From NCBI RefSeq assembly GCF_000189635.1, contig NW_002476413.1, forward strand, positions 558,001 through 622,000: a DNA stretch of 64,000 bases, given 5' to 3'. Below, in pieces: positions 4,285 to 46,900 of the stretch. A model generated the notes under the pieces. The model was given only the letters and a program-made list of their open reading frames with translations. It had not been told where the DNA came from and did no database searches. A program made the position numbers and the translations under genes. Origin of the DNA: Tetrahymena thermophila SB210 (lineage: Eukaryota > Ciliophora > Oligohymenophorea > Hymenostomatida > Tetrahymenidae). Position 1 is the stretch's first letter; each line of letters starts with the position of its first letter.

Positions 4285-5217
4285 TCAATTTAATGGGAAT
4301 TATATGCTGCCCTCAAATACTTTTGCGGCAGGGCCTATGACTTGCAATGAGTAATCTTCTTAATTAACATTAATTTGAAGTTCTCCTCCTCTCAATAAAA
4401 CTTTAGATGAAGGGCTATTCTTTTTATTTAAAATTCCTGCAAAAACTGAAGCACATGCACCTGTTCCACATGCCATAGTTTCTCCACATCCTCTTTCGTA
4501 TACTCTCATTTTGAGTGTGTTTTCATCTAAAATTTGTATGAATTCTACATTAACGCTTTAAGGGAATATATCTTTTCTACTTTAAAGAGTTTTTCCTATT
4601 CTCTCTACTTCAGCTGTTTCAACATCATCTACATAGATAACACAATGAGGGTTGCCTACGTTAACGAATGTGACATAATGAGTTTCTTCGCTTAAATGGG
4701 ATAAGTTTTATTAATGTAGATTTTGGTTTATCTTTAATGGCTAGTTTATAACAACACTCTCAGCATCACTATTAAATGGATTTGCAGGTATTTTAGATAT
4801 TTCTGCAGTCGCCTTTCCTATATTCGTTCTATATAATCCTAAACTGAGCTCTTCACACTCCAACACTCCTATATTTGTTCTAATTTACACTATTTTTTTA
4901 TTTTAGATAATCTTTTTTTCTAATATGTATCTTGTAAAGCATCTTAATCCGTTTCCACAAATTTGAGATTCATATCCATCTGCATTGAAAATTTTATATC
5001 TTATATCTGCTTAAATTCCATCTTATTTGTCCTTTTCACTTTCATTTTCAACAAACATCACTCCATCAGCTCCTATGCCAAGGTGTCTATCACAAAGTTT
5101 TGCAATAATCTTAGAAAACTCATCAGGGTTGCCACACGTATTTAAAAGATTTTGTCTATTATCAATAATGATGAAATCGTTTCCTAAGCCATGAAATTTA
5201 TCAAAATGAAGAATCAT
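4285..5217 (-). CDS. dapF: Diaminopimelate epimerase (DapF)
   Basis: Converts LL- to meso-diaminopimelate, the penultimate step of bacterial/plant lysine synthesis, by a two-cysteine acid-base mechanism without cofactor. The 310-residue, single-exon product has the family's usual length. It begins [12 protein letters not shown] (family: KMxGxGNDFxxID), has GADGV near residue 51, and [16 protein letters not shown] around 78-93 with catalytic Cys87. GNPHCV lies at 188-193 and [15 protein letters not shown] at 241-255 with catalytic Cys250. Both catalytic cysteines are present, so it looks active. In-frame TAA/TAG codons fall where glutamine is acceptable, so it is a host-coded gene and not bacterial contamination. 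No neighbouring dap gene is seen. Tetrahymena is classically a lysine auxotroph, so the role is open. Start is the ATG giving the exact family N-terminus. Confidence 0.93.
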
Positions 5218-6655
5218 TTTTCTGAATTCTAAGAACCTTCTAAAAATAATAATAAAATTTATTTTGTTTATCTATTTTGTAAATTTATTGTTTCTAATTT
5301 AGAAATGTCTATTTGACGATTGGCAATTAAAAATTTTAATAAAGTAATAGATATAAATGTGTTAATATTTAACAAAATTTAAGGAATATTATCAAAGAAT
5401 ATTTAACTAATTTATTTATATACTTATTTATTTTTGGAATTTTTTAAATATTTTCCAAAAATATCAAACATACATATTGTGATTTAAAATGTTTTGTAGC
5501 TATTTTAATAATACATAAAAGATATTTAAGTTGCTTAACGAATGTAAGGATATTTAATGATAGAAATTATCAAAATAAATACTTTGAAAAAAAATGCTTA
5601 ATATTTTTGACAGTTTAGAATTTAAATTTCTAAAAATTAAATTTTGATTAAATAGCCACAACACAAAATTCATTATTAATGTTAGTTTTAAATGAATTAT
5701 ACTTACAATAATGGGGGTATTATATGAATTAATAAAAATTAAAAAAATTTACTATTCATATTCAAGATTATATTTTATATTTATTTTACCTACAATTACA
5801 AACAAATACCCCCAAAATATTCAAATTGATTTTATAAAAATAAAAATAAGTGGTTGAAACAACCATAAAAGATATAGACACTTTTAATAAATTGTTATAA
5901 TTAACTATTAAAAATAGACAAAAAAAAGATATTAAAATACTTATAAGGTCATACTTTTTATCATAAATTGTTTACAAAATAAAACAATTTATACCTCATA
6001 TTATAGACATTTAAGATAATATTGAAGTTAAATAAACTAATATATTTTAAAAAAAAGGTTTTATGTTTCAAACTTTTATTGATATAAAATGTTTTTATAG
6101 CATCATATCTCATATATATCTTCCTCCCTTTGAATATTTTAAAATTATAATTAAAGTTGATATAGAAAATATAAATTCCCAGTATTCATCAGTTTAGCCT
6201 AAGTTTTCTTTTTAAATTTATTATTTATTAGTATGAAAATATATTTTTACTCTCCTTAAAGGTAAAATATTTATTGAAAAATAGAAAAATCAAACATGAA
6301 TTTGAAAGGTAGCAAAAATCTCTTTATTTTTTGAGATAAAATGAATATTAAGGTATTATTTTTATTAAAAAATTAAATATTCTTATTGATTTTTCATCCT
6401 CAGTTTGTTTGTAAAATAAAATAGATGCTACAACTTCTTTTCAGAAATATCAAGAAAAATCTTTTTAATTAAGAAAATAAAAATTTTTTCAAAGATAGAC
6501 TAATAAATTGATTGTTGTTATTAATCAATAATTATTTAGAATAATTAATTGCAATTATTTAGAATAATTAAATAAGAGGAATTTTTTATATTTTAGAAAA
6601 TAATTTCTAAGAGAAATTCTAATTCTACTGATAAATATTAACTTATAAATTATAA
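5218..6655. other. Intergenic, no feature seen
   Basis: About 1.4 kb of A/T-rich DNA between the divergent starts of the dapF gene (minus) and the small membrane-protein candidate (plus). Promoters of both must lie here, but no distinct motif is readable. Confidence 0.5.
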
Positions 6656-16321: not shown

Positions 16322-19300
16322 ATGTAGACAAATAACTAAGAAATTCAAAAATAAAGCTCTTAATCTCACCAAAGTGGTATTGATGCGAATTTTAATAATA
16401 ATTAATTCAATTTTTAAGATATGAAAGATAATTTTTTTGATATGGACTTTAATCATAATTAACCAGCAGCTCTCGGTTAAAATTAAAATCAGAATTAAAA
16501 CACCTAGCAAATAGATTTATTAGGAGATGATGATCTTTTTTGGGGTAATAGCGGCAATAACAACAATTAATAAAATAACAATTAGCTCTAACAGTAATAA
16601 TAAAATTAAAATTAGGTTCAGCCACAAGCCTTGAAAAATGAATTTTAAGACTTTGATTTTGATTTTATGGAAAAAAGCATGAATAATAGCTAATAAAAAA
16701 ACAGTTTAAATGAATAAAATGCTTATCAGTCATAGCATCCACCGCTACCTCCCAAAAAGTAAAACTCTAATATGAATTCGTAAAGTAACAGCTAGAATAT
16801 TTCAAGAAACAATAGTATGCATAATAGTTAGTCAAGTTAAAAAGGAAATAATCTATATAATAGCTAAAATTAAGGTAATAAATAGCCTATTAATAATTAA
16901 ATTTCTTAGAGTAGCAATGCATTTCAACGTAAAGACAGTCTTGGAATATAAAAACAAAATAGTTATGAGTATCACAATTAGTTCAATAGCAACAACAACA
17001 ATAACAATAATCAAGCTTAATTTGTAGGATTTGATATGAATTTTTAGAGTAATCAAGCTAATAATTCGTTTACAAACAATAATTAAATGAAAAAGAGTGG
17101 TTCAATAAGCAATTAATAAAATTAAAATAACTTTGATGGATTTGATTTTGGATTTGGAGGTTTTGGAGACATAAACCCTATGGCAAACTCTTAAACTTCT
17201 TCTTAAAATAAAGGGTAGAATAATTAAAATCAATAGCAACAGTAATAGCAATACAACTTGAATTAATTTGATTTTGGAGAGTTTAATATGAATGCTTAGG
17301 CCTAACAAAGTTAACAAGGAGGAAATAATGCAGGTGCTTAGAATTATAATGATTTTTATTTTGGTAATGACAATAATCAATAAATTAATCAAGTATAAGG
17401 TCAAAATATTGCTGAATCCTAGTTTTAATACAACAACCCTGATGCATTTAATAGCTACAACAGTTACAATAATAATAATTTAAATCATGGAAGTCTTCAT
17501 AAAGATAAATCTTAAAATAAAGCTTCTTTGGATAATTCTTAAATTTAAGAAAAAGATGAGAAACCTTTGACGATTAGCTAGAAGTTAGAATTAGGAGGAA
17601 GTGAATTTAATTAGCATTAACTAAAAATTAGCTAAGAGCAACAATATAAATAATAGTATTAGAATGTTGATTTTGATGATAATTTTAACAACAACAAGTT
17701 GCAAACTTCATAACCTAACATCTAAATTCAATCTGGAAATAATTCCAAACAATTATCCCACAAATCCAGTGGAAGTAGTCAGCATTAGCAAGAATAGCAG
17801 TAAAAATAGAAATAATAATTTGATCTTGGAAGTAATTTTTTTGGGTCAGGAATAAATAATCCTATGATTTCAAGTGTTGGAAGTGAGTAGAGCAACAAGA
17901 AAAACTAATAATAAGATTGGAATTTTTAAGCCAATAAAAATAACAACGCAAATTTTTTTGACACAAACTTTGATTTTACATAAAATAATAATAACAATAG
18001 AGATGAAGCAGCTTAGCTCTCAAAAAAACATTCTTAACACAGCAATTCCAATTTCTAAGATGTTCATAACAATTAATTTAATAATAGCAATAATTTTGGA
18101 TAAAATAATGATTTTGCAAACAACAACTGGTCTGGAAACAATTAAACTCAAAATAAGCAAAATTTGCTTGATGAAAATTTCAATTTTAACACAGCAAATT
18201 CTTAGAAAAATCACTAAGAAGAAGATAACAAAGTTTAATTTTGGATGCAGTAAAAAGTTCAGCAATAGATTTTTGGAAATTAGAATGAACCCAATCTAAA
18301 CTCGGTAACTAAGAATAGTAGTATTGATAAATCTCACAATATGTCTACAAGTAAAAAAAATAATAACAACAAAGATGCCTTTGGATTAGATGATTTTGGA
18401 GAAATTTCTGAAGCAACTGGTGGAGAAGATTCAAAAATAGAAGCTCAAAAATATGGTTTTGATTACGACTAAAAAACAAATGAAAAAGATCAACAAATAG
18501 CTAACGATAGTAGAAGATCTGATGATTTCGATGATCTCTTGCCTTCCGAAATAGACTTAGTTAAACAAAATAAAAGGAAACTTCAAATGGAATAGAATTT
18601 AAGAGACTAACAATAAGATTATCATGAATAGTAGCAATTTTAAAATATTTAAGAAAACAAAAATCAAAATTTAGAAAACAAACAAGTGCAGGATGGTAAC
18701 TAAGAATTGGCCATACATAAATAGGTCTTGAAAGCGAAATAGTAGGCGTTAGCTGAATAAATTAATTATGCCCAAATATAACATGACAATTCTAAAATTA
18801 ATCATATGCCTGGAATAAGACCTTTTTCACCTCTATAACATACTTAGAGCACAAATTTAAGTAATAAAAGGAGATCAAGTATAGAAGAGTATGCTTTAAA
18901 AAAATAAATGGAAAACTAAATCAATATTTTAAAACCATTTGACTTTGAAGCTTAAAAGCAGAAAAATGATCAAAGGCGTCATTCTGAAGGTTAGGCCATT
19001 TTATCGTAATAAATTTAGAGGTTACAATAAAATTTAAACTTAGGAACAATAAATGAAGTAATTTTTCTTAACAAATAATTTGATCCTAAAGAAATATATT
19101 TTTATTTTTTTTAATTAGGAAGAACTTCAAGCTGGCGATAATCAACTTTAAAAGAAAGGCATCCCTCTCTATTAAGGAAAAGGAGATCACATACCAAACG
19201 TCAACCTAATTCTTCCAAGCATTAAAGGGTAAAAAGAATAAGTTGCTGCTTTTTAAGAGGAACAAATTGGAAATCCCTTACATTCTAAGTCATCTGTGTC

Positions 19301-21107
19301 TTAAGATGACGAAGATGACTACCTTGATAGTCCGGAACTCAAGTAGAAATCTCAAAAAAATCAATCTAACAATTTGCAAACTTAAAATAATGAACATACT
19401 AATCCCTCCAATCCATAGATAATTCTTGCAGAAAGTGACATAATTCCATATCCTGACGAGAATGGGCAAGACAATAATTAAAATAATGATTTTCTTGGCA
19501 TTCACAAAAATTAGAATATCCTCGAAAGTGAAGTGATTAAACCCCAACATAAAAATTCACTTTCGCCGAGAAGCAATGTAAAATTTTGAATAAATAAAAG
19601 CTAAAAATAAATAAAATTAGTACATTAAAATTATAAATTAGAAAAATCTTTTATATTATTAATTAGATAGGAAATAATAGATAAATTTTACAGTCAGAGT
19701 ATTTAATTGATAAACAAGTTGCTAATTAATAATTAAATACTAATTTCAAGCCTACCTTAACTGAGAGTTATGTAGAAATTGATCATACTAAAGATGACAA
19801 CAGGTTTGTTAATATGTAAAATTATACAATATAGAATTTTGTGAAAAGTGAAAATGTGTTACCAAGCAGTGATGATGAAGCTTAACAAACTTAACAAAAA
19901 GTTGGGACTACGGTATCAAATAGAGAGAGTTTGGAGAAATCAGTTGAGTAGACAATTGAGGAAATTAAATTTGACATAGATGATTTCCCAATGCTTGAAA
20001 ATTAACTGAATACTAAAGGCTAATTTACATCTAAAGAATAATAAAATTTAATTAAAAGATAGCTTTCAATCATTAATGAGGAGTTTGAGTAAGTAGAAGA
20101 TCCTGATCAAAACATGTCTCAAGCCAACCAAGAAAAACTTTATGTAAATATATAGTTAAATAATATAAAGATTAAACTAAAAATATTATTAAACAGGAAC
20201 AAAGATTAGAATAAATTAAATCTGATTAAATAGCAATCCACAATCAGCTAGCAGAAATTAAGAATTAAACTATTTTATATGAAGAGGAATTTAAAAAGAA
20301 TACTAATGCCAAAGAAGATGACCTTGAAAGGATTAAAAACTAGTTAAAAGCAATGCAATAAAATTAATAAAAAATAAAGAGCTTAAAGGACAGATATAAG
20401 TAGAATCTTCAATTTATTATGCTTATTGAGTATAAAAAAGCAGCCTTATCTGTGGAAAAAATGTAAGCAGAAATATCTAAGTTGTAAGAAAATTCAAATA
20501 AATCAAGCTCACTCCAAGGCAGCTAAAAGTAGATGGGTTCCTCTTCAGAAGCAGTATCATTTTTTATATTAATTTAAAATTTAAATTTAAAATCTTGTAA
20601 AAGTAAAATTCAAGTTTGATCGAGAGTCTAAAAAAAGAAATCTAAGATTTAAAATAGCAAATGAATTCTTAATACTACCCAAAATCTTAAATATCTCGCT
20701 AAGATTCTCAGGATCAAAAAAGGAAATATTCTGAGAATGAAATTGCTATAATTGAAGATTTAAGAATATAAATGAATAAACTAAAATCCGATTTCGAAAG
20801 TAAATACAACGAGTAGTCCAGTAATCTGTCAGCAGAAAATAAAAGCACAATGATAGAATTCATGGAAAAGTTATCATAAATAGAAAAAAATATTATAGAC
20901 CAAAAGGAGGAAATTCAAAGGCTAGCTTCTAGTTAAAATGATATCCAAAAGTAATTTATGAGCATAAGTCGCACGAGCAACTAATATTTCTCCCCTTTAA
21001 GCTAAGATCGTCAATTCAGTAATAACTTTATATAATAAAATTATTTTTAAAATAAATAATTATATTAAGAAAAGTTTAGATATTTTCGAAAATTTATTAT
21101 TAAATGA
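16322..21107 (+). CDS. Giant Gln/Asn-rich protein with many FDF-type motifs and C-terminal coiled coils
   Basis: A 1,510-residue protein in five exons (16322-19057, 19119-19577, 19667-20143, 20197-20553, 20604-21107), every junction in phase 0. The first about 900 residues are dominated by Asn and Gln, with recurring Phe-Asp clusters: FFDMDF, FDFDFM, FDGFDFGFGGFGD (about 268-280), FDFGEF, VDFDDNF, FFDTNFDF, FGLDDFGE and DDFDDLL. IDLLGDDDLFW near residue 65 resembles a clathrin box (LLDLD-like). From about residue 1170 the sequence becomes charged and heptad-like, predicting coiled coils to near the end. Phe-Asp motifs in disordered chains are typical ligands of adaptor appendages, and the next gene carries such a domain. 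No folded catalytic domain is visible. The protein is also prion-like in composition. The start is the first ATG after an in-frame TGA. Confidence 0.8.
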
Positions 21108-22180
21108 AATTATTTTAAAATAAAATTAAATTTAACTCTTAATCAAATATCTACTTAATTTATAACAAAAAATATAATCAAAATGCTCCTAAATTATGTT
21201 TGATATAACAGTAAGAGATAAATAAAGGACTAATTTAATTTTCATTTATAAAAGCTTTAAATAAATAAATGTTGTGAATAATAAAATAGTGATTGTAGAA
21301 TAATTATTTTAGATAAGTAAATAATTATTCAATTTAGATTAATAAGGCTAAATAGTAAAATTATTAGAAATTTAATTTTTTTATATCAATCGATAATGAT
21401 ATTTTTAAAACGCAATATTGAGGTTCAATTTTTCGAGAATTTTGATACTATTAAAAAGAATGAGAAAAAAATTAAAATAAATATAGAAAATTAATATTTC
21501 AAAAATATATTATATAAGTTTGATTCATCGAAAAACCAATTTTTTAGAACACTTCAAGTAAATAGGGATGAACTAAGGTTTTGCAACAGCAATCATATTT
21601 AAAAATAGGAAAATAATCAAGAAATAAATTAACGATGTCTTTGGAAATATATTATTTAGCTCAAAATATATTTTTAAATTATTGAATTTTATTATTTTAA
21701 TTTGGTTATTATTATATAATAAATGAAATAGGATAAATATTTAAGATAAGTAAATAAAGATTGATAGTAGAGTTTGTTTTTCCATATTTAATTTTATTAT
21801 ATCGATAGACCGATAACGATATTTGATAAATTTTTTGAAAAAATCAATATTACTAATTATGAATGAGAAAAAAATAAAAATAAATATTATAAAAATCTAT
21901 TTATTATCTAAGTTCGATATATCGAAAACCAATTTTTTAGAACAACTCTAATAAATAGAAGTTAACAAAGCAAAGATATTTAAAAATAGGAAAATAATTA
22001 AGAAATGAATTTGGAAATATATTATTTGGTTCAAGATATGCTTTTTTAATTATAAAATTTTATAAATATAATTTGATTATTGATTGTATAATAAATGAAA
22101 TAGAATAAATATTTCATAGGGATGATTGATTACCTTTCCTTTATTTTTAGCATAATAAATATATATTTTTATAGAAATAA
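21108..22180. other. Intergenic, filled by two diverged direct repeats
   Basis: The whole interval between the FDF-motif gene and the appendage gene is taken up by the repeat pair listed next. No ORF is seen. Promoter elements of the downstream gene must lie within the second copy or the last about 70 bp. Confidence 0.55.
21285..22120. repeat. Two diverged direct repeats, offset 370-420 bp
   Basis: Copy 1 (about 21285-21745) and copy 2 (about 21755-22120) share in order: ATCGATAATGAT-like, AATGAGAAAAAAAT, a TTCGAT/ATCGAAAA pair, CCAATTTTTTAGAAC, TTTAAAAATAGGAAAATAAT, TTGGAAATATATTATTT and ATAATAAATGAAATAG. The offset shrinks from about 420 to 370 along the unit, showing several deletions in copy 2. 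Confidence 0.8.
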
Positions 22181-24899
22181 ATGCTTAAAAACAATTTTAT
22201 AAACAAATTAGACTAAAATAACGAAGATAGAAAGTATGGTCAAGAAACTCATTATTAAGAAAATCCATAAATAAGCCTAATAAAAAATGATAGCTAGAGT
22301 GAGCAAGGAGAAGCTGAATTATTCCCTAGGAACGAATTTATAGATAAAACTGAATAGGAACAATCTTAGAATTTTAAGTAAAACCCTATATTTGACGAGA
22401 ACGAATATAAATCAGTAAGAGGAAGATATAATAATCAGGAAGATGGAGTCAATTTTTTGACCCCTTCTAAATCTTCTCCTGGCATGATGGAGTATTCTCC
22501 TATTATTTCTTAAGACTAATAAATAAATCATCATGATTATCGCTCCACTGTAGGTCCAAGATAATAATTTTATTCTCAGTAATAATATTAAACAAATGAA
22601 AATACTGCTAAATATTTTTACTAAGGAGACAAAAATAATTAACTGAATTATAGCACAAATAATAGAGAATAAAATCAATACAATCCTGACTAAGTTAACC
22701 CATAATAAATTAATTAAGATGAAAATCAAATGAATAACTCTATGCTTAAAAACTTATATGAAAGGACAGCTTCTCATACTTTACTTTATGAATAGAACTA
22801 ACATTTAAAAAGTATTTATTAAGATCCTTATGTGCTCATGAAAGCTTTTGAAGCTTAAAAGGTATCTTAATTATAATTTTCAAAAGTATAGACTCCTTAC
22901 GATGTCTATGGGTCTTTCCAAAATAATAGGATATAACAAAGACTGAGGGATTCTGTTTACAGTGGTACGTCTTAAATTTTCAATGAAGCTATAAACTTCT
23001 CTATAAACTCGTATAAAGTTAACTATGTTGCTTCTAATTACAACATGGGAGTAAAAAATATAGAAAAATCTTAATTTACAAATTAAATGCTTTCAGAACA
23101 TGATAGGTAAATAAATATTTTCATTTTTTATACGAGAAACAAAGAAATTAATTATTTGATTTTTTATTTCAAGCTTACAAATTTTATTAAAACAGAACTC
23201 TTTTTTCAATTAAATAAATAAATCTATTTATGCTTAAAATTTCAGCCAGACTTTACAATTTTATTTTCACGGTATGACCCTTTTCAAACTTTTGATAAGA
23301 TAAAATAACGGAAAAATATAAAAGAAAGAAAGTATTTTTTAGATTTTTAAAAGATGCTTTCATGAAATTAAAAAATAAAAATGGAAATAAATTAAAAAAT
23401 ATTGATTAAATATTTTAAATTGATAAACAAATTAAATAATAAAAAAATAACCAATAAAATATTCAAATTAGTCTAAATTCTAATTATCTTATTGAAGAAA
23501 AAAATAGTAAATTGCGTTTAAATTTTGATGGCCAAAATAAACCTAAATTTTAAATTTATATGAATCCAATTAGATCATTTTCTTTTAAAAAAAATATCAA
23601 TTTAGATTATTCTTTTCGCATATATTTTTATTGGAGTTAGCAAAATATTTGTTGATTATTCTAAAATTAATAAAATTAAGAGGTCAAATGAATTATTTTT
23701 CTGATTAAAATATTTTGAAATAAATTAGATAATAAAAATATAATTTATTAACAAGCAACATTAAATATTATCAATTAATTAATATCGTTTTTTAATTAAA
23801 AAGATATTATGATCCTTTGATCGAACTCGCATAAAAGTAACTAGGAAAGGAATACTTCCCAAATAATGAATGGTTTGAGAAAAATATTAAATAGTTTGTC
23901 AATAGAGTAAATATAGAGAAAAGAGTGCTCAAAGATTCAATTGTAAACTAGAATTGTGTTATCCTTGAAACATTTGATTTGCAAGTTTCTGCTAAATATT
24001 CTATTGTTAAAACAACAAATAGCTCTGGTAAACCAGATCCTCGCTACCCATCTTAGATTCTGAAAATCTAGCTCACCTATACGAATAAACTAGGAATGAA
24101 CATAAATAATCTTTTAATAGTTTTAGCATCTGCGAAAGGTAGATTTATTTTCTTAAAATAAAAATAAATACTCTAATAATTTGTATTTTACTGATTAATT
24201 AATTAATTTAAATCTTAAAAAAGGCTATGAAACAGTTTTAGCAGACCCTCCTAAAATCATCCAAAATTAATTAAAAGCTTACGAAACAATATACTAAGAC
24301 GTCTATCTTCCTAATTACAGACCTAATTCCTAAATGTTGATTTCTTAGTTTTCTTATAGGTAATTATTATCAAAATGGATTATTAAATGCTTTAAGCTTA
24401 ACTTTATTTAACTGACGTACTTTATTAATTTATTTTTTTTTTAATGTATTATAAAAGCACGGGTTTTAAACAATCTAGGGTGAGCGCTTTAATACCAAGC
24501 ACTCCAAACAAATTCATGGATTTTATTTTTATCAACAAAGAATAATTTAACCAAATGTGGGCTGAAAGTAAAGATACCATGATCTATTGTTCACCAGTTT
24601 ACTTGAATACCCACATAATCCAATCATGTGAAGATTTCAAAACAATTTATCCTCTTTTAATAGAAATTGTAGAAGCCTTCGAATAATATAAATAGTCTTG
24701 GAGAGAATTTGGAGGTTCATTTACCATACTAAATGACCCTTACCCGAATACTACTTATCTTCTTAAAATTTGTTTCTCATAAGATTAAAGAGTTTACTTC
24801 TAATTTAGTAGTGTTGGGCAAGACCAAGTCTAATCTTTCAACATTAAAAAAGTACTCTAAAGCATACTTGATTTATTTTACTTCTTATATTGTGAGTGA
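22181..24899 (+). CDS. Protein with C-terminal alpha-adaptin-like appendage domain
   Basis: A 612-residue protein in four exons (22181-23106, 23804-24138, 24224-24359, 24458-24899) with consistent phases; the first intron is 697 bp. Residues 1-300 are disordered, Gln/Asn/Tyr-rich. Residues about 309-612 resemble the appendage (ear) of AP-2 alpha: a beta-sandwich part (ETFDLQVSAKYS; LTYTNKLGMNINNLLI), a linker, then a platform part (KFMDFIFINKEQFNQMWAES). That matches the alpha platform pattern of a KFF strand and FFxRW helix, including the key Trp. The adaptin trunk is absent, so this is a stand-alone ear. Appendages recruit accessory proteins bearing DPF/FxDxF motifs to clathrin coats, and the preceding gene encodes many of that type. 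The fold assignment is by pattern only. Stop lies in a TGAG repeat that puts TGA in every frame. Confidence 0.6.
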
Positions 24900-40263: not shown

Positions 40264-40611
40264 ATGCAGTAGTTTTACCATAATAAAAAAATCTATTTAT
40301 AGTATAGAAAAATACAAGCAAGCATCTAGGCAATAAGGAATAAAAAATGATATCGCTAAAATGAATGCATAAATAAAAAGAATAGAGATAAACCCTAAGC
40401 TATTTATAAAAGATAAATAAATTAACTATGTGCTAAAGATTTGCTTGATATTGGGACATCTAAATAAGAAGAAAGAGTTAATCCATATTAATCATTCTAT
40501 GAATCATTGTAATTAAATTGTATTCTGACTCCAAAAGCTGAAAAGTATGTCATCAATTTGTAAAATGAAAATAAATGCAATTATCTATCCATTGTTTTTA
40601 TAATTATTTGA
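40264..40611 (+). CDS. Doubtful 116-codon ORF interrupted by one in-frame TGA
   Basis: The frame opens at ATG 40264 (MQQFYHNKKIYLQYRKIQ), meets TGA at 40348-40350, and continues in the same frame to TGA at 40609-40611. The downstream part reads like normal protein (AIYKRQINQLCAKDLLDIG; FYESLQLNCILTPKAEKY). A second frame over 40300-40510 is also open. Options are a small gene with an unseen intron, a decayed gene, readthrough, or selenocysteine (Tetrahymena uses UGA for both stop and Sec). No family is recognised, and a Cys-containing homologue would be needed to favour selenocysteine. Confidence 0.25.
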
Positions 40612-40904
40612 TGATTTATAATGCTTATTAGCAGTATCTATTTAAATATATTATTTCTAATTAATAAAAAATATTTATTGTTTCATCCATATAACATTTA
40701 AGCAAGTAAAACAAAACAAAAAATAACAATAAGAAGATCAGACACAAATTAACTAGCAAAAAAACAAACAAACAAACATAATCCTATTATACAAATTTAA
40801 AGGCTTAATAAATATTTGAAATCCCTATAAAAGAGCTTTAAATATTAAAAACAAGAACACAATCATCAACCTAAATTATACAAAAAATAGATAAATAGTA
40901 AGTT

Positions 40905-43900
40905 ATGAGTACAACAAACGGCGTTCATTAGCAGCATCGCACTGGCTAATAGTTCATAGTTTATCTAGACTAGAATGGTTCATTCCCAAATTCTCACGAA
41001 AAGTAGTATATAGTACACGCAAATGACTCAGTTACAATTACTTTAGATTCTAGCTGGCTTGAGCAGAAGACTCCTATCCTGTTAACCAACTACCCAGAGT
41101 TTGATAAGACCAAAAACTCATATATTCATCCTATAGCCCCTGAGATCACAGAAAGTTCAAGCATGACTATTTAAGAATCTGAATTGCTTAAAAAATATAA
41201 AATATTTACTGGATTTTATAATTCAGAAGGTTCTTGGCAAGTAGACTTGCAAATACAAGATTTTGATGGATCTTTGTTTCTCCAGGTCATTTTTATTCAA
41301 GGTGATTATTTACCTGGCTAAAGAGAGCCTCTTACCATTAAGAATTTCGGAGCTCCTGAATGGCTTATGATCTAGCCCAGGTTAACAGTTAATAAAAATC
41401 AGATAGGAATGGATTAAATAATTATTCAAACTGTTTTACCTTTTAGCTTAGGACATTCAAGCAAATGGTTAGAAATACTTAGAACCCAGACTAATTTAGG
41501 CTATAATGGTTTCCACTTCCCTCCCATCTAAAAGCTTGGTTTCTCTGGCTCTTATTATTCAATTAATGACTAGCTCAAGCCCAATCCTGATTTATTTGAT
41601 TAAAATGAAAAGGAGCCCTTCGCAGCCATGAAACAAATTGTAAATACAATAGAAACAGAAATGAACGCTCTCTCGTTCGTAGATATTTTACTTAACCACA
41701 CATCATTCGATAGTGAATGGCTGCTTTAACTCCCTGAAGCAGTGTATAATCCTGAGAATACTCCATAATTGGCTGTAGCTTTATAACTTGATGAAGCTAT
41801 CTAAAATTTTAGTGATAAACTAGCAACCCATCAAGTAAAGGAGTACTACAATGGTTCAAATAGGATAGAAAATGAAGAACAGCTTAGCGTGTTGATCGAA
41901 ATCATGAAAACTAAAATCTTCTATGGCATGAAGCTTGAAGAGTACTTCCTTTTGGATAAACAAGCCATTTCTACCAAGTTTTAGGAAGCAGTCAAAGGAA
42001 AAGGCCTAAAGTTAATCTAAAAAGAGCAAGATGTAGATGACGATGAAAATATCTTCTCAAGATCTGGATTCGATATCCTGAATGCTTTCATCAAGTAAAA
42101 CACAAGTAGTTTAGGTAAATTATAAAATAATTTTTGAAAAAACATAAAATAAAAACAAACTGCACCTTTATTTTTATTGACTATTTTTAACAATGAAAAG
42201 AAAATCAAGCTCTTACTTCTAATTCTACCAATTTATTAAATCCAAATAAAAACCAAGTTTATTAAACCAAAATAAAATTTGATTAAAAAAGATAAGCCAT
42301 CTATAAAATTTATTTAATTTCCCCAATTAGATAGATAAATTTTCATTTCAAATAGATATTGTAAGTAAATCTTTGTCGCAATAAATATTGCTAGAACTTA
42401 ATGAATGAAATAAATCGATCAATAAATAAATAAATAAATATCCATTCTAAAATTATTTACGCTCTAATAATTTAAACACTGAATCTAAAAACGAATTTCT
42501 CAAACTTACTTTTATGAATTTTACTTAAATGAATAAACAAACAATGATTAAATTATGATATTATATAGGTTCTAAAAGATATGGAGCAACTCTTGACATA
42601 AACAAGCTAATAGAAACAGAGATCTCCAAACAACCTACCCTCTTTTCATTGGAGGCTTTCGAAAGAGCATTAACCCATTTTAATTAAACATGGATGGATC
42701 GTTTTTACGAATATACCAATTAAGCTGTAGAGTCAACTAGAGGTTAAATTCGCTATTGGCATATAGATCTAGGAAGATTTGAAGTTACAAATTAATACTC
42801 ACTTGTTCCTAGATACTTTACTAAAATGAGTAATGGTAGATACGCTGCTAACAATGGTTGGATTATGGTAAAAATTTTATTTTAAAAAAAATAATTTCAA
42901 AAGCTGTTTAAAGAAAGATAAAGCAAATAAAAGCCATTCATTCATTTAGGATAAATAAACATATAGCAAAGTTAGCTATTTAAAACAATTAAAAAATAAA
43001 TCAAATAAAAAAGTTTAAATGTGAATGAAAATTATTTTATTTATTTATTTGATAACTAACTGTATAAATTCATGCAAATATTGCTATATTAAAAAAGAAT
43101 TATGACCCATTGAAGAACTTTGCAGATGATTAAGAATTTCACTACTATAGACGTACTATTTGCATTTGGGGAGATTTGATTAAGTTAAGGTATGGTTCAA
43201 GCAAAAAGGATTCACCAGGCTTATGGAAACGCATGAAAAAATATATCTAAGAAATGGCTAAAGTTTTCCATGGTTTCCGTTTAGATAACGCACATAGCAC
43301 TCCCCTTCATGTTGGTGAATATTTTATGAGAAAAGCTCGTAATGTAAATAAGAATTTAATGATTTTTGCAGAATTATTCACTGGTAATGGTGAGAAAGAT
43401 GCCATTTTTTGTAAAAGAATGGGTATTAATGCTCTTGTCCGTGAACTAAATCATAATAGAAACCCATTAGATCTTTACCATAACCTCCATTGGTTATCCA
43501 GATCTTAGGAGTCTAGTGTTGGTTCATTACCTCGTCTCTTTTAATTTGACTTTAACTCAAATCAAAAGAAAACCCATTTAGTTCCAACATAGACTAAGAG
43601 CATTGTTTACGACTAAACTCATGATAATGAGTCTACATTATCAATTTTTTCCCATTAGCAAACAGTTCCATTAATTGCATTAACCTCATTTAGTCATTTC
43701 GTTCAAGGTAATTAAATTAATAAATGTCATTCTTCTTCTTAAATTAATTTTAATTATTTCTTTGAAAAAAATTCCTTATCACAAATCAATAGGGTCTAAA
43801 ATTTCATTTATTTATTTTTTAAAATCAGAAAATTTATTTTATAATTAAAATTTACTGATTTTTAAAAAAAAAATTTATTTTTTAAATCCCTATTTCTATT

Positions 43901-46900
43901 TTTATAATTTTTTGATAAAAATTTTTCAAGTTTAATAACAATTTATTTAATTTGGTATTTAAAATTGCATGACCAAGTTAATTGCATTACTTATATTCTT
44001 TTTAAACTAATTCCTTTCAAATATAAAGGTACTGTGAGAGGTTTTGACGAATTATATCCTGAAAAGCTCAGTGTAGTTTCGGAAAGAAGAAAGTACTAGT
44101 CATAATTAGATTGCACATAGACAGAATTAGACAATATTCCTATAGAAGTAGGTATAGTGGCAACTCTTAAATTTTCTACTGAAAGCATAGAAATTAAAGG
44201 TAGTTGGGACAATTGGACAACAGGAATTAAAATGAATCATCACTCTGGTAATCATGAAACAGGAGTTTTCTAGTATTTAGCTAAATTCTAAGTTCCATCT
44301 GCTAACACAAGCTACGAATATAAATATATTATTGACGGAAAATGGATAGCTGATGAGACCAAGCCAATTAAAAATGAAAATAACTACTTTGATGTTCCTG
44401 AAAATGCTAATAATCTAACTTACTATAATAACTTATGTTTGCTCCGTAAAACATTTATTGAAATTAACTAAACCCTAAACAAGCATTATCCTTTTATTTT
44501 CTACTCTCATTATGACTATGGATTCTTATCTGTTATGAGAGAGACTTACTAGAAAGACTAATACTATTTCCTTATCAGCAGAACTGCCTTATGTGAAAAC
44601 GATTCTAAGGTAATAAATTAATTAGAAAGGTTTTAAATTATTTTAAAATATTTTTATGAAAAAATAAATAGGTCAATGTAGAAATAGAGTGTCCTGGAAT
44701 TATTTAATCAATTGAAGGAATATATAGTGTAAATTTGATGCTAAATTAAAAGATAGTTTATATAAATAAATACATATAATATAGGCTAGTGATTCAATAG
44801 ATGTAGATGGTAATAGAGTTAAGAACCATGAAATATTAACTGGCCTGAAAACCAAAATATATAAAGAGTTCAATCTTTTTAAGTATGGTGAATTGAAGTT
44901 TAATTAGCAAACTATGAAACATACAATTCACTTCTTCAATGCTCCTCCATCATTATCAATTGTTATTAAATGTACTTTGCATGCAACTTAAAAGCAAGGA
45001 ATTGAGAGATTAAATTATATGCTTCACCATATTCAAGATGACGAAATTTTAGCATTGTATAGGCCATTAAAAACAGAAGATATAAATTACCTCTTCTTCT
45101 CATCTGAGCAAGAAGAGCATGAGAGAAGTGGCTATGGAATGTTTAACATTCCAAATAAAGGAAATTTATTATTTGGAGGTTTAGCAGGTAAAAAGATTGA
45201 TTGATTGATTGATTGATTCATTATGAAAATAAAAATATTTGTATGTATGTTTAATAGGTAAAATAACTGTATTCAATTTTTATTAAAAGGTGTATTCAAA
45301 GATGTCAATGAAGCATGTTTATACAACGATTTAGGCAAGCCTCTTTTTGTAAACTTGAGAGAAGGCTATTGGTACTTAGACTATATCATTAATAGATTGA
45401 ATAAATATGAGGGAAATTTGACTTAAATTACTGGATACATTTAATCTTATTTCGATTTATTAAAAGTAATTCCTAAGTATTTAATTCCTCACTATTTCAG
45501 TTAGTTCATTTTGCAAATTCAATTGCATGCTCATAAAATTACTGCCTCCAAATTGAAAGGAGAAGCCCTCAAATTAAGCTCTTCATTCCACAAAAACCTA
45601 CTATTTGCAAATTACTAATTCTTGTCTGTACTTCCTTCAACTCATTTCGATGAATATTCGCTTTCAATGGCTGCTGGTCTACCACACTTCACTACTGGAT
45701 GGGCTAGATGCTGGGGAAGAGATACATTCATTTCCTTGAGAGGTAAATTTAATTAATTTTTGTTTGTTTTTGAATTTTATATATTAACAAAAAAATAAAA
45801 TAAAAGGTACTCTTTTGATTCCAGGTTTGTACGAAGAGGCAAAGTCTATAATATGTATGTTTGCTTCGACTCTCAGACATGGCTTAATCCCTAACTTATT
45901 AGATAACGGAAAAAGCCCAAGATATAACTGTAGAGATGCTTGCTGGTGGTTTGTAAAAGGTGTCAAAGACTATATTTAGTTTACAAATGACACCTAAATT
46001 TTAAAGAAAGAAATTAAGATGCGTTTCTTGAGTGATGATTTTATGGAACATTATGATAAGGAGAGCAAAGGATAAGTTAAAAAAATGCTATTACAAGATA
46101 TCATCTTTGAAATCTTCTAAAAGCATGCCAAGGGAATACATTTTAGAGAGTGGAAAGCTGGTTGGGAAATAGACTCAAATATGGATACTGAAGGTTTCAA
46201 CATTCACTTAAAGCTTGATGAAGTAACTGGTTTTATTTTTGGTGGTAACATGAGAAACTGTCTAACCTGGATGGATAAGATGGGTTCTTCTACAAAGGCA
46301 GGCAATAAAGGTATTCCAGCAACTAGCAGGTAAAAAAATTAAGTTTTTAAATTAGACAAATTGTTAAATTTTATTTTAAAAATAAAAGAGATGGAGCTCC
46401 TATCGAAATGACCGCAATTTTAAAATGTTGTTTAGATTTTGTGAACAGCTGTCCTGATTTCCCATACAAAGAGGTGGAAACAGCTTCAGGAAAGAAATTA
46501 ACTTTTAGATAATGGGGATCACTAATATCTGCAAACTTTGAAAAGTGCTATTGGATACCAAACAAGTTACCTAGCATGGATAATATGTCTGATAAATTAT
46601 TCAAATACATAACTAGAAAAGGTATTTACAAAGACCTCTACAACTCATCTATTCCTCGTTGTGATTTCTAGCTTAGACCAAATGCATGTATCGCTATTGC
46701 CTTGGCTCCAGAATTATTTACACCTCAAAATGCTCTCTTCCATCTTGCAACTGTCGAAGGTGTTCTTATTGATTAAAACAGCTTAGGTGTTAAAACTCTT
46801 GATAAGCTTGCATAAGAGTATGTCCCATATTATGACAATTCTGATGATGGTATTTAGCCAAAAACAGCTCATGGATTCTGCTACCATAATGGACCTGTAA

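Follow-up and report, generated by a model that had tools for sequence, protein, structure and literature searches.

In a 64,000-nucleotide stretch of the Tetrahymena thermophila genome (contig C134:558001-622000, hereafter the window; the genome comprises 101 Mb in 445 contigs), residues 309-612 of one open reading frame (ORF) are a diverged AP-2 alpha appendage, or ear. Upstream of it lies a second ORF that is rich in Phe-Asp-Phe (FDF) clusters and has a helical tail. We consider it probable that the downstream ORF is a trunkless AP-2 alpha appendage of the type named KAE, one of at least ten in this genome, and that the upstream ORF is the N-terminal half of the same gene.

The original prediction described the C-terminal domain as patterned like the AP-2 alpha appendage, and this was borne out by profiles built through relatives. 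With the window ear as a query, the genome search returned a relative on contig C114 (E 3.1e-6). The ear of this relative passes in Pfam (30.6 bits) and its matches in the PDB are AP-2 alpha in seven of seven cases (best E 1.1e-4); hhalign pairs it with the window ear at 96% probability. A profile of the C114 ear, the genome's own AP-2 alpha, and mouse alpha-C, from which the window gene was excluded, finds the window protein at E 8.2e-11, and a profile of the two canonical ears alone finds it at E 1.6e-4. Over these two models, a mouse alpha-C-only profile, and C114 alone, the best of 500 shuffles reached E 1.5 and the best ORF elsewhere in the window 0.42. A profile of nine relatives without the window detected the window ear at E 1.1e-19 and mouse alpha-C at E 1.7e-13. 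Searching 177,635 PDB sequences with a profile of seven of these nine relatives (C160 and C184 left out) gave nine matches; AP-2 alpha took the first seven places (E 1.4e-12 to 1.2e-11), and GGA ears followed in places eight and nine at 0.04 and 0.67. AP-2 alpha also ranks first in the PDB with a two-member profile of the window ear and C114 (E 0.039). Finally, when the window ear was compared with 12 adaptin-like genes by hhalign, AP-2 alpha alone stood out, at a low probability of 10.9%, the next being 1.1%.

Several results weigh against this identification. Taken by itself, the window ear matches Pfam PF02883 at E 0.014 and 16.1 bits, under the gathering cut-off of 27.6, and phmmer gave no match for it in the PDB at E 10; the identity of the ear was therefore tested via its relatives. 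The mouse alpha-C-only profile missed the window ear (E 2.4), the nine-relative profile scores the genome's own AP-2 alpha ear at E 0.005 only, and in a poorly resolved tree the window ear stands beside AP-2 alpha on long branches, outside the trunkless family, with a support of 0.83. AlphaFold returned no usable model of the contiguous platform exon taken alone (predicted local distance difference test, pLDDT, 43); the order of strands and helices in this low-confidence model is platform-like, and a fold search with it found no match up to E 0.001. The platform family PF02296 has no match in the window ear. It has none in this genome's canonical AP-2 alpha ear either, and the genome search with PF02296 gave no match in any genome, so this result is no evidence of absence.

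With the C114 ear as a query, ten trunkless loci were found, on C114, C214, C178, C160, C188, C13, C9, C184, and C209 and in the window. Queries with the C214 and C209 ears added no further locus, and the canonical ear returned itself alone. The relatives' loci are labelled L031, L032, L050, L051, and L054-L059, their ears having been modelled from genomic DNA. Because six-frame searches score best candidates only, all counts of trunkless ears are lower bounds. The adaptin trunk, Adaptin_N (PF01602), had no match on C134 among the best candidates of the six-frame search and none by Pfam. Over the genome, 34 Adaptin_N matches fall on 12 contigs, whose genes were modelled roughly, and 0 fall on any contig bearing a trunkless ear. 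The canonical AP-2 alpha of this genome lies on C86 (L020); its ear reaches 37.5 bits with PF02883 and matches AP-2 alpha appendage structures with a best E of 1.7e-5. Of the nine relatives, two reach the Pfam cut-off, C114 and C214 (31.8 bits), and seven fall below it. As eight of the ten trunkless ears are thus under the threshold, the family would mostly be annotated as hypothetical proteins.

Such an architecture is known from parasites. The KAE protein of Toxoplasma has a C-terminal alpha ear and no trunk, is found with AP-2 and K13 at the micropore, and binds Eps15L through a WxxF motif with its ear (Koreny et al. 2023, PMC10105704). This source describes the trunkless alpha-ear protein from apicomplexans and states that it is present in all alveolates, so the architecture is not specific to ciliates and the ciliate-specific module first proposed does not hold. 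KAE and the Tetrahymena proteins share the C-terminal AP-2 alpha ear without an adaptin trunk, with a separate AP-2 alpha alongside. Coiled-coil motifs are present in KAE and also in the relatives C114, C214, and C178; for the window gene, a coiled-coil N-terminal part exists in the one-gene model only, and its periodicity is not significant. KAE differs in being tied to K13, which PMC10105704 does not find in ciliates. Moreover, the AP-2 alpha ear is degenerate and the KAE ear conserved in Toxoplasma, whereas in Tetrahymena the AP-2 alpha platform is the more canonical one (by eye) and the trunkless ears are altered. There are also ten trunkless copies here, which resemble TgKAE in its described architecture. 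In Plasmodium falciparum, KIC4 and KIC5 have been described, of which KIC5 likewise has alpha-adaptin-type appendage subdomains without Adaptin_N, whereas KIC4 combines VHS and GAT domains with a beta-type platform (PMC10718435); Pfam finds no VHS or GAT in the window protein. With the AP-2 alpha appendage itself (PDB 1b9k, 1w80, 1ky6), the window ear shares the sandwich-plus-platform sequence pattern, an NKF motif, and an equivalent of W840, but it has no trunk or core, and the positions of R916 and R920 are not basic. Among the open-licence papers listed by the literature searches, no title or abstract beginning names a ciliate expansion of trunkless alpha-ear proteins; ciliate copies may already appear in the supplementary trees of PMC10105704.

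The open frames of both ORFs require ciliate code 6. Genes were modelled with this code and GT-AG introns, and a simple exon-chain script recovered the same exons unprompted. The downstream ORF has four exons and 612 residues from ATG 22181, ending at 24899, and the fused one-gene protein would have 2,083 residues. For the last ear exon, an acceptor at 24479 was dropped in favor of 24458 (612 residues, better fit to relatives); the genome search with the window ear as the query used the shorter ear from 24479, and the Pfam and PDB searches were redone with the longer one. The features, in window coordinates, are as follows.

16322..19057, plus strand: upstream ORF exon 1, asparagine- and glutamine-rich (N/Q-rich) and disordered-looking, with FDF clusters; also picked by the exon-chain script.
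16436..18535, plus strand: FD/DF-rich region, residues 39-738, with 13 of the 17 clusters (for example FFDMDF, FQDFDFDF, FDGFDFGFGGF, FDFGEF, FFDTNFDF, and DDFGEI), compared with shuffles and 86 control ORFs.
16511..16540, plus strand: loosely clathrin-box-like IDLLGDDDLF, residues 64-73, from a pattern scan against the controls.
19119..19577, plus strand: upstream ORF exon 2 (gene model).
19667..20143, plus strand: upstream ORF exon 3 (gene model).
20197..20553, plus strand: upstream ORF exon 4 (gene model), in which a charged, helical-looking region begins.
20604..21018, plus strand: upstream ORF exon 5, up to a GTA donor (composition, donor); the open frame continues to TGA 21105-21107.
21019..22211, plus strand: 1,193-nt intron in the one-gene model, or 3' end, intergenic gap, and 5' end in the two-gene model.
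22212..23106, plus strand: linker exon preceding the ear (gene model); the two-gene model starts at ATG 22181.
23804..24138, plus strand: ear exon 1, N-terminal part of the appendage sandwich subdomain (gene model, profile comparison).
24224..24359, plus strand: ear exon 2, remainder of the sandwich (gene model, profile comparison).
24458..24899, plus strand: ear exon 3, platform subdomain, whose F496 and W500 align with F836 and W840 of mouse alpha-C.

Diverged direct repeats with a spacing of 370-433 bp (window 21296-22114) lie within the gap or intron between the two ORFs.

The original prediction took the ORFs for adjacent genes encoding a receptor and its ligand; the donor at 21019, the composition beyond it, and the layout of the relatives make it reasonably likely that they are one gene. 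The last 86 nt of the upstream open frame (21019-21104) have a GC content of 0.081, under all 1,806 like-sized exon windows (minimum 0.174) and under seven introns (0.10-0.16), and their codon score is lower than that of all 2,028 windows of 28 codons, with a codon table trained on the window and other loci, both ORFs included. Published GC averages for this species are 27.5% in exons, 16.1% in introns, and 18.1% between genes (PMC3341644). The GTA donor begins exactly at 21019, where the composition turns intron-like. From 21053 to 22260 there are 58 acceptors, five of which have a codon score above 0.2, all at or beyond 22211; four of these share the reading frame of the ear ORF. The best-scoring continuation from this donor is the ear ORF, the acceptor at 22211 (CAAATTAG) giving 384 codons. 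Run over the full span, the exon-chain program joins 21018 to 22212 unaided, but it can output one gene only. In each of the three relatives whose upstream sequence extends for about 1.5 kb or more (C114, C214, and C178), the predicted gene consists of a coiled coil, a linker, and the ear, with a heptad periodicity equalled by 0, 1, and 9 of 300 shuffles, respectively; for the six other relatives, the upstream sequence covered is too short for this comparison of layouts. Beside the C114 relative, there was no FDF-rich ORF among the listed ORFs of at least 250 residues on either side.

A number of observations speak against a single gene, and some of them favor two separate neighbors, an FDF-rich accessory protein and a trunkless ear, adjacent by chance or through fission of a coiled-coil-plus-ear ancestor. 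The exon-chain score is 627.1 for one gene and marginally higher, 630.7, for the sum of two. The donor at 21019 also admits a 51-nt intron, followed by a last exon of 12 codons that ends at TGA 21105-21107, and a gap of about 1.07 kb would be nothing unusual next to the mean intergenic length of 1,562 bp in T. thermophila, whereas an intron of 1.19 kb is long for an organism with a mean intron length of 162.7 (PMC3341644). In addition, a window in the gap near 21540 has a coding-like score of 0.311, compared with up to 0.302 in a control intron, and in C188 the roughly 110 residues N-terminal of the ear are N/Q/S-rich, with no coiled coil. However, two genes fit poorly with the union of coiled coil and ear in a single predicted gene in the three relatives, and with the position of all five well-scoring acceptors, four of them in the ear frame. 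We therefore regard two genes as plausible but, on balance, not probable, and continue with the single gene as the preferred model.

The upstream sequence had been described as an accessory-like protein with more than ten Phe-Asp clusters. As to enrichment and clustering, this description stood. FD or DF occurs 31 times in 1,510 residues, in 17 clusters (positions at most 10 residues apart merged), 13 of which lie within the first 800 residues. The pattern F.?D.?F occurs 8 times in these 800 residues, against a mean of 0.89 and a maximum of 6 in 5,000 shuffles, and its density is 5.96 per 1,000 residues compared with 0.92 in 86 control ORFs; a single control is denser, with 3 in 367 residues. 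The controls are stop-to-stop frames of at least 300 residues (39,197 residues in all) from the window and other loci, largely adaptin and ear regions; some are not genes, and they are no random sample. Every motif pattern was picked post hoc, with the sequence already seen. Of the canonical motifs, DPF/W, WxxF, and NPF are each absent from the upstream ORF, and FxDxF occurs once, a count reached by 1,071 of the 5,000 shuffles, so that by the canonical signature of appendage ligands (DPF/W, WxxF, FxDxF) the counts are 0, 0, and 1.

The clathrin-box-like IDLLGDDDLF is present as predicted, but as a looser variant. The usual clathrin-box pattern, L[LI][DEN][LIVFM][DE], has 0 matches in the upstream ORF, which weighs against a coat function. 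The IDLLGDDD-type pattern has one other match in the control residues, IDLLGGDEE in the hinge of the adaptin L019 (gamma-like by eye). Of four ENTH/ANTH candidates modelled in the same genome, two contain F.?D.?F (two each, in the ENTH protein L044 and the kinase-ANTH protein L047) and three contain the usual clathrin-box pattern, while the IDLLGDD type is in none; the common grammar thus lies in the FD motifs, the clathrin boxes being of different types. The tails of L044 and L047 carry FD-type motifs (FDLF, FGDF, FDFW, FNDF) as the window ORF does, but these proteins have ENTH or kinase plus ANTH domains and the window ORF has neither. In L047 (C154, around 669614-669832), one predicted gene encodes protein kinase (156 bits) and ANTH (23.8 bits against a cut-off of 21.5) domains and a tail in which FDFW and FNDFG occur; this may be a fusion of an AAK1-type kinase with an AP180-type domain. 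Pfam recognizes no domain in the upstream ORF, hence no EH, ENTH, or ANTH, and a search of this genome with the C-terminal part of the ORF gave no relative at E 0.1. A genome search for EH domains, a weak test that gave no match in control genomes, yielded one match; the region that contains it has kinase and EF-hand sequence and was not taken for an Eps15. The C-terminal coiled coils of the original prediction were not upheld: the heptad periodicity of the helical part was equalled by 51 of 300 shuffles and does not significantly exceed what composition gives, which also counts against an oligomerizing scaffold.

It had further been expected that the ear binds FDF motifs in the canonical platform pocket. 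Binding of the upstream motifs in this way, in cis or in trans, would agree with the FD/FDF enrichment and with the aromatic residue kept at the W840 position, but the pocket itself makes it quite unlikely. In an alignment of the ten trunkless ears (the window ear and nine relatives) with mouse alpha-C, the W840 column holds W in seven ears, including that of the window, and an aromatic in all ten; the F836 column holds F in eight, the F837 column F in none, and the R905 column K in nine, again including the window. The arginines R916 and R920 contact the acidic FxDxF and DPF ligand motifs, and no trunkless ear has an arginine in either column, the alignment near 915-920 being uncertain by about one residue. 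The scarcity of DPF/W, FxDxF, and WxxF in the upstream ORF points the same way. The canonical Tetrahymena AP-2 alpha ear has R-L-S-L-R where mouse has R-L-T-L-R (read by eye; in the automatic alignment, which is shifted at this point, the residues are L and G). As it keeps both arginines, it is the better candidate receptor for the FDF motifs.

Two other readings concern the partners of the upstream sequence. It might serve AP-1 at the trans-Golgi network (TGN) instead of AP-2, since FGEF, FGDI, and FGEI are motifs of the type bound by gamma ears. FG[DE][FIMLW] occurs 3 times in its 1,510 residues and 4 times in the 39,197 control residues, at least one of these four being in the L019 adaptin hinge, and the ENTH protein L044 contains FGDF. 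Yet this pattern too was chosen post hoc and the linked ear is alpha-type, not gamma-type, and we hold a TGN role to be unlikely. Alternatively, the upstream ORF could encode an unrelated N/Q- and F-rich disordered protein with no coat role, similar to FG nucleoporins or to the FDF-type proteins of P-bodies. FDF motifs occur in mRNA-decay proteins too, FG is enriched in this ORF (10 versus 2.66 in shuffles), and both a Pfam domain and a standard clathrin box are missing. Nevertheless, the IDLLGDDD-type motif recurs among the controls in an adaptin hinge only, and the sequence precedes an ear, just as its relatives are laid out, which leaves this last reading distinctly improbable.

From a functional perspective, the single-gene protein would most likely serve as an accessory scaffold in the plasma-membrane coat formed by clathrin and AP-2, which in Tetrahymena would mean the parasomal sac, where PMC2954822 places clathrin-mediated uptake. 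Its motif-rich half, with the FD motifs and the clathrin-box-like motif, may bind both clathrin and AP-2 or AP-1 ears, its helical part may oligomerize, and its own ear, whose platform pocket is altered, would recognize a different set of short motifs from canonical AP-2 alpha. A single polypeptide of about 2,083 residues might then combine at least a dozen FDF-type ligand motifs, the clathrin-box-like motif, a helical oligomerization region, and its own diverged alpha appendage, a receptor and ligand in cis that could close upon itself or crosslink AP-2. It might be one of about ten multiplied and retuned ciliate scaffolds, perhaps for different cortical sites of uptake or secretion. We offer this wider picture, with receptor and ligand in cis, tentatively, as a possibility below even chance. 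The data suggest that the split between AP-2 alpha ear and trunk, known from the micropore of malaria parasites and Toxoplasma, was kept and multiplied in a ciliate lineage said to lack K13. Since Tetrahymena is easy to tag and knock out, a general role of free-standing ears can be tested outside a parasite.

Two other genes in the window deserve mention. At 40569-44735 lie the domains of a glycogen debranching enzyme; its glucanotransferase domain and its central domain, which scores just under the cut-off (26.6 versus 27), are separated by a glycogen-binding domain of the AMPK type (AMPK1_CBM, 38.5 bits). On the minus strand at 4288-5391, a ciliate-code ORF matches diaminopimelate epimerase DapF (TIGR00652, 250 bits, cut-off 114.65), a lysine-synthesis enzyme of bacteria and plants that is unexpected in a ciliate.

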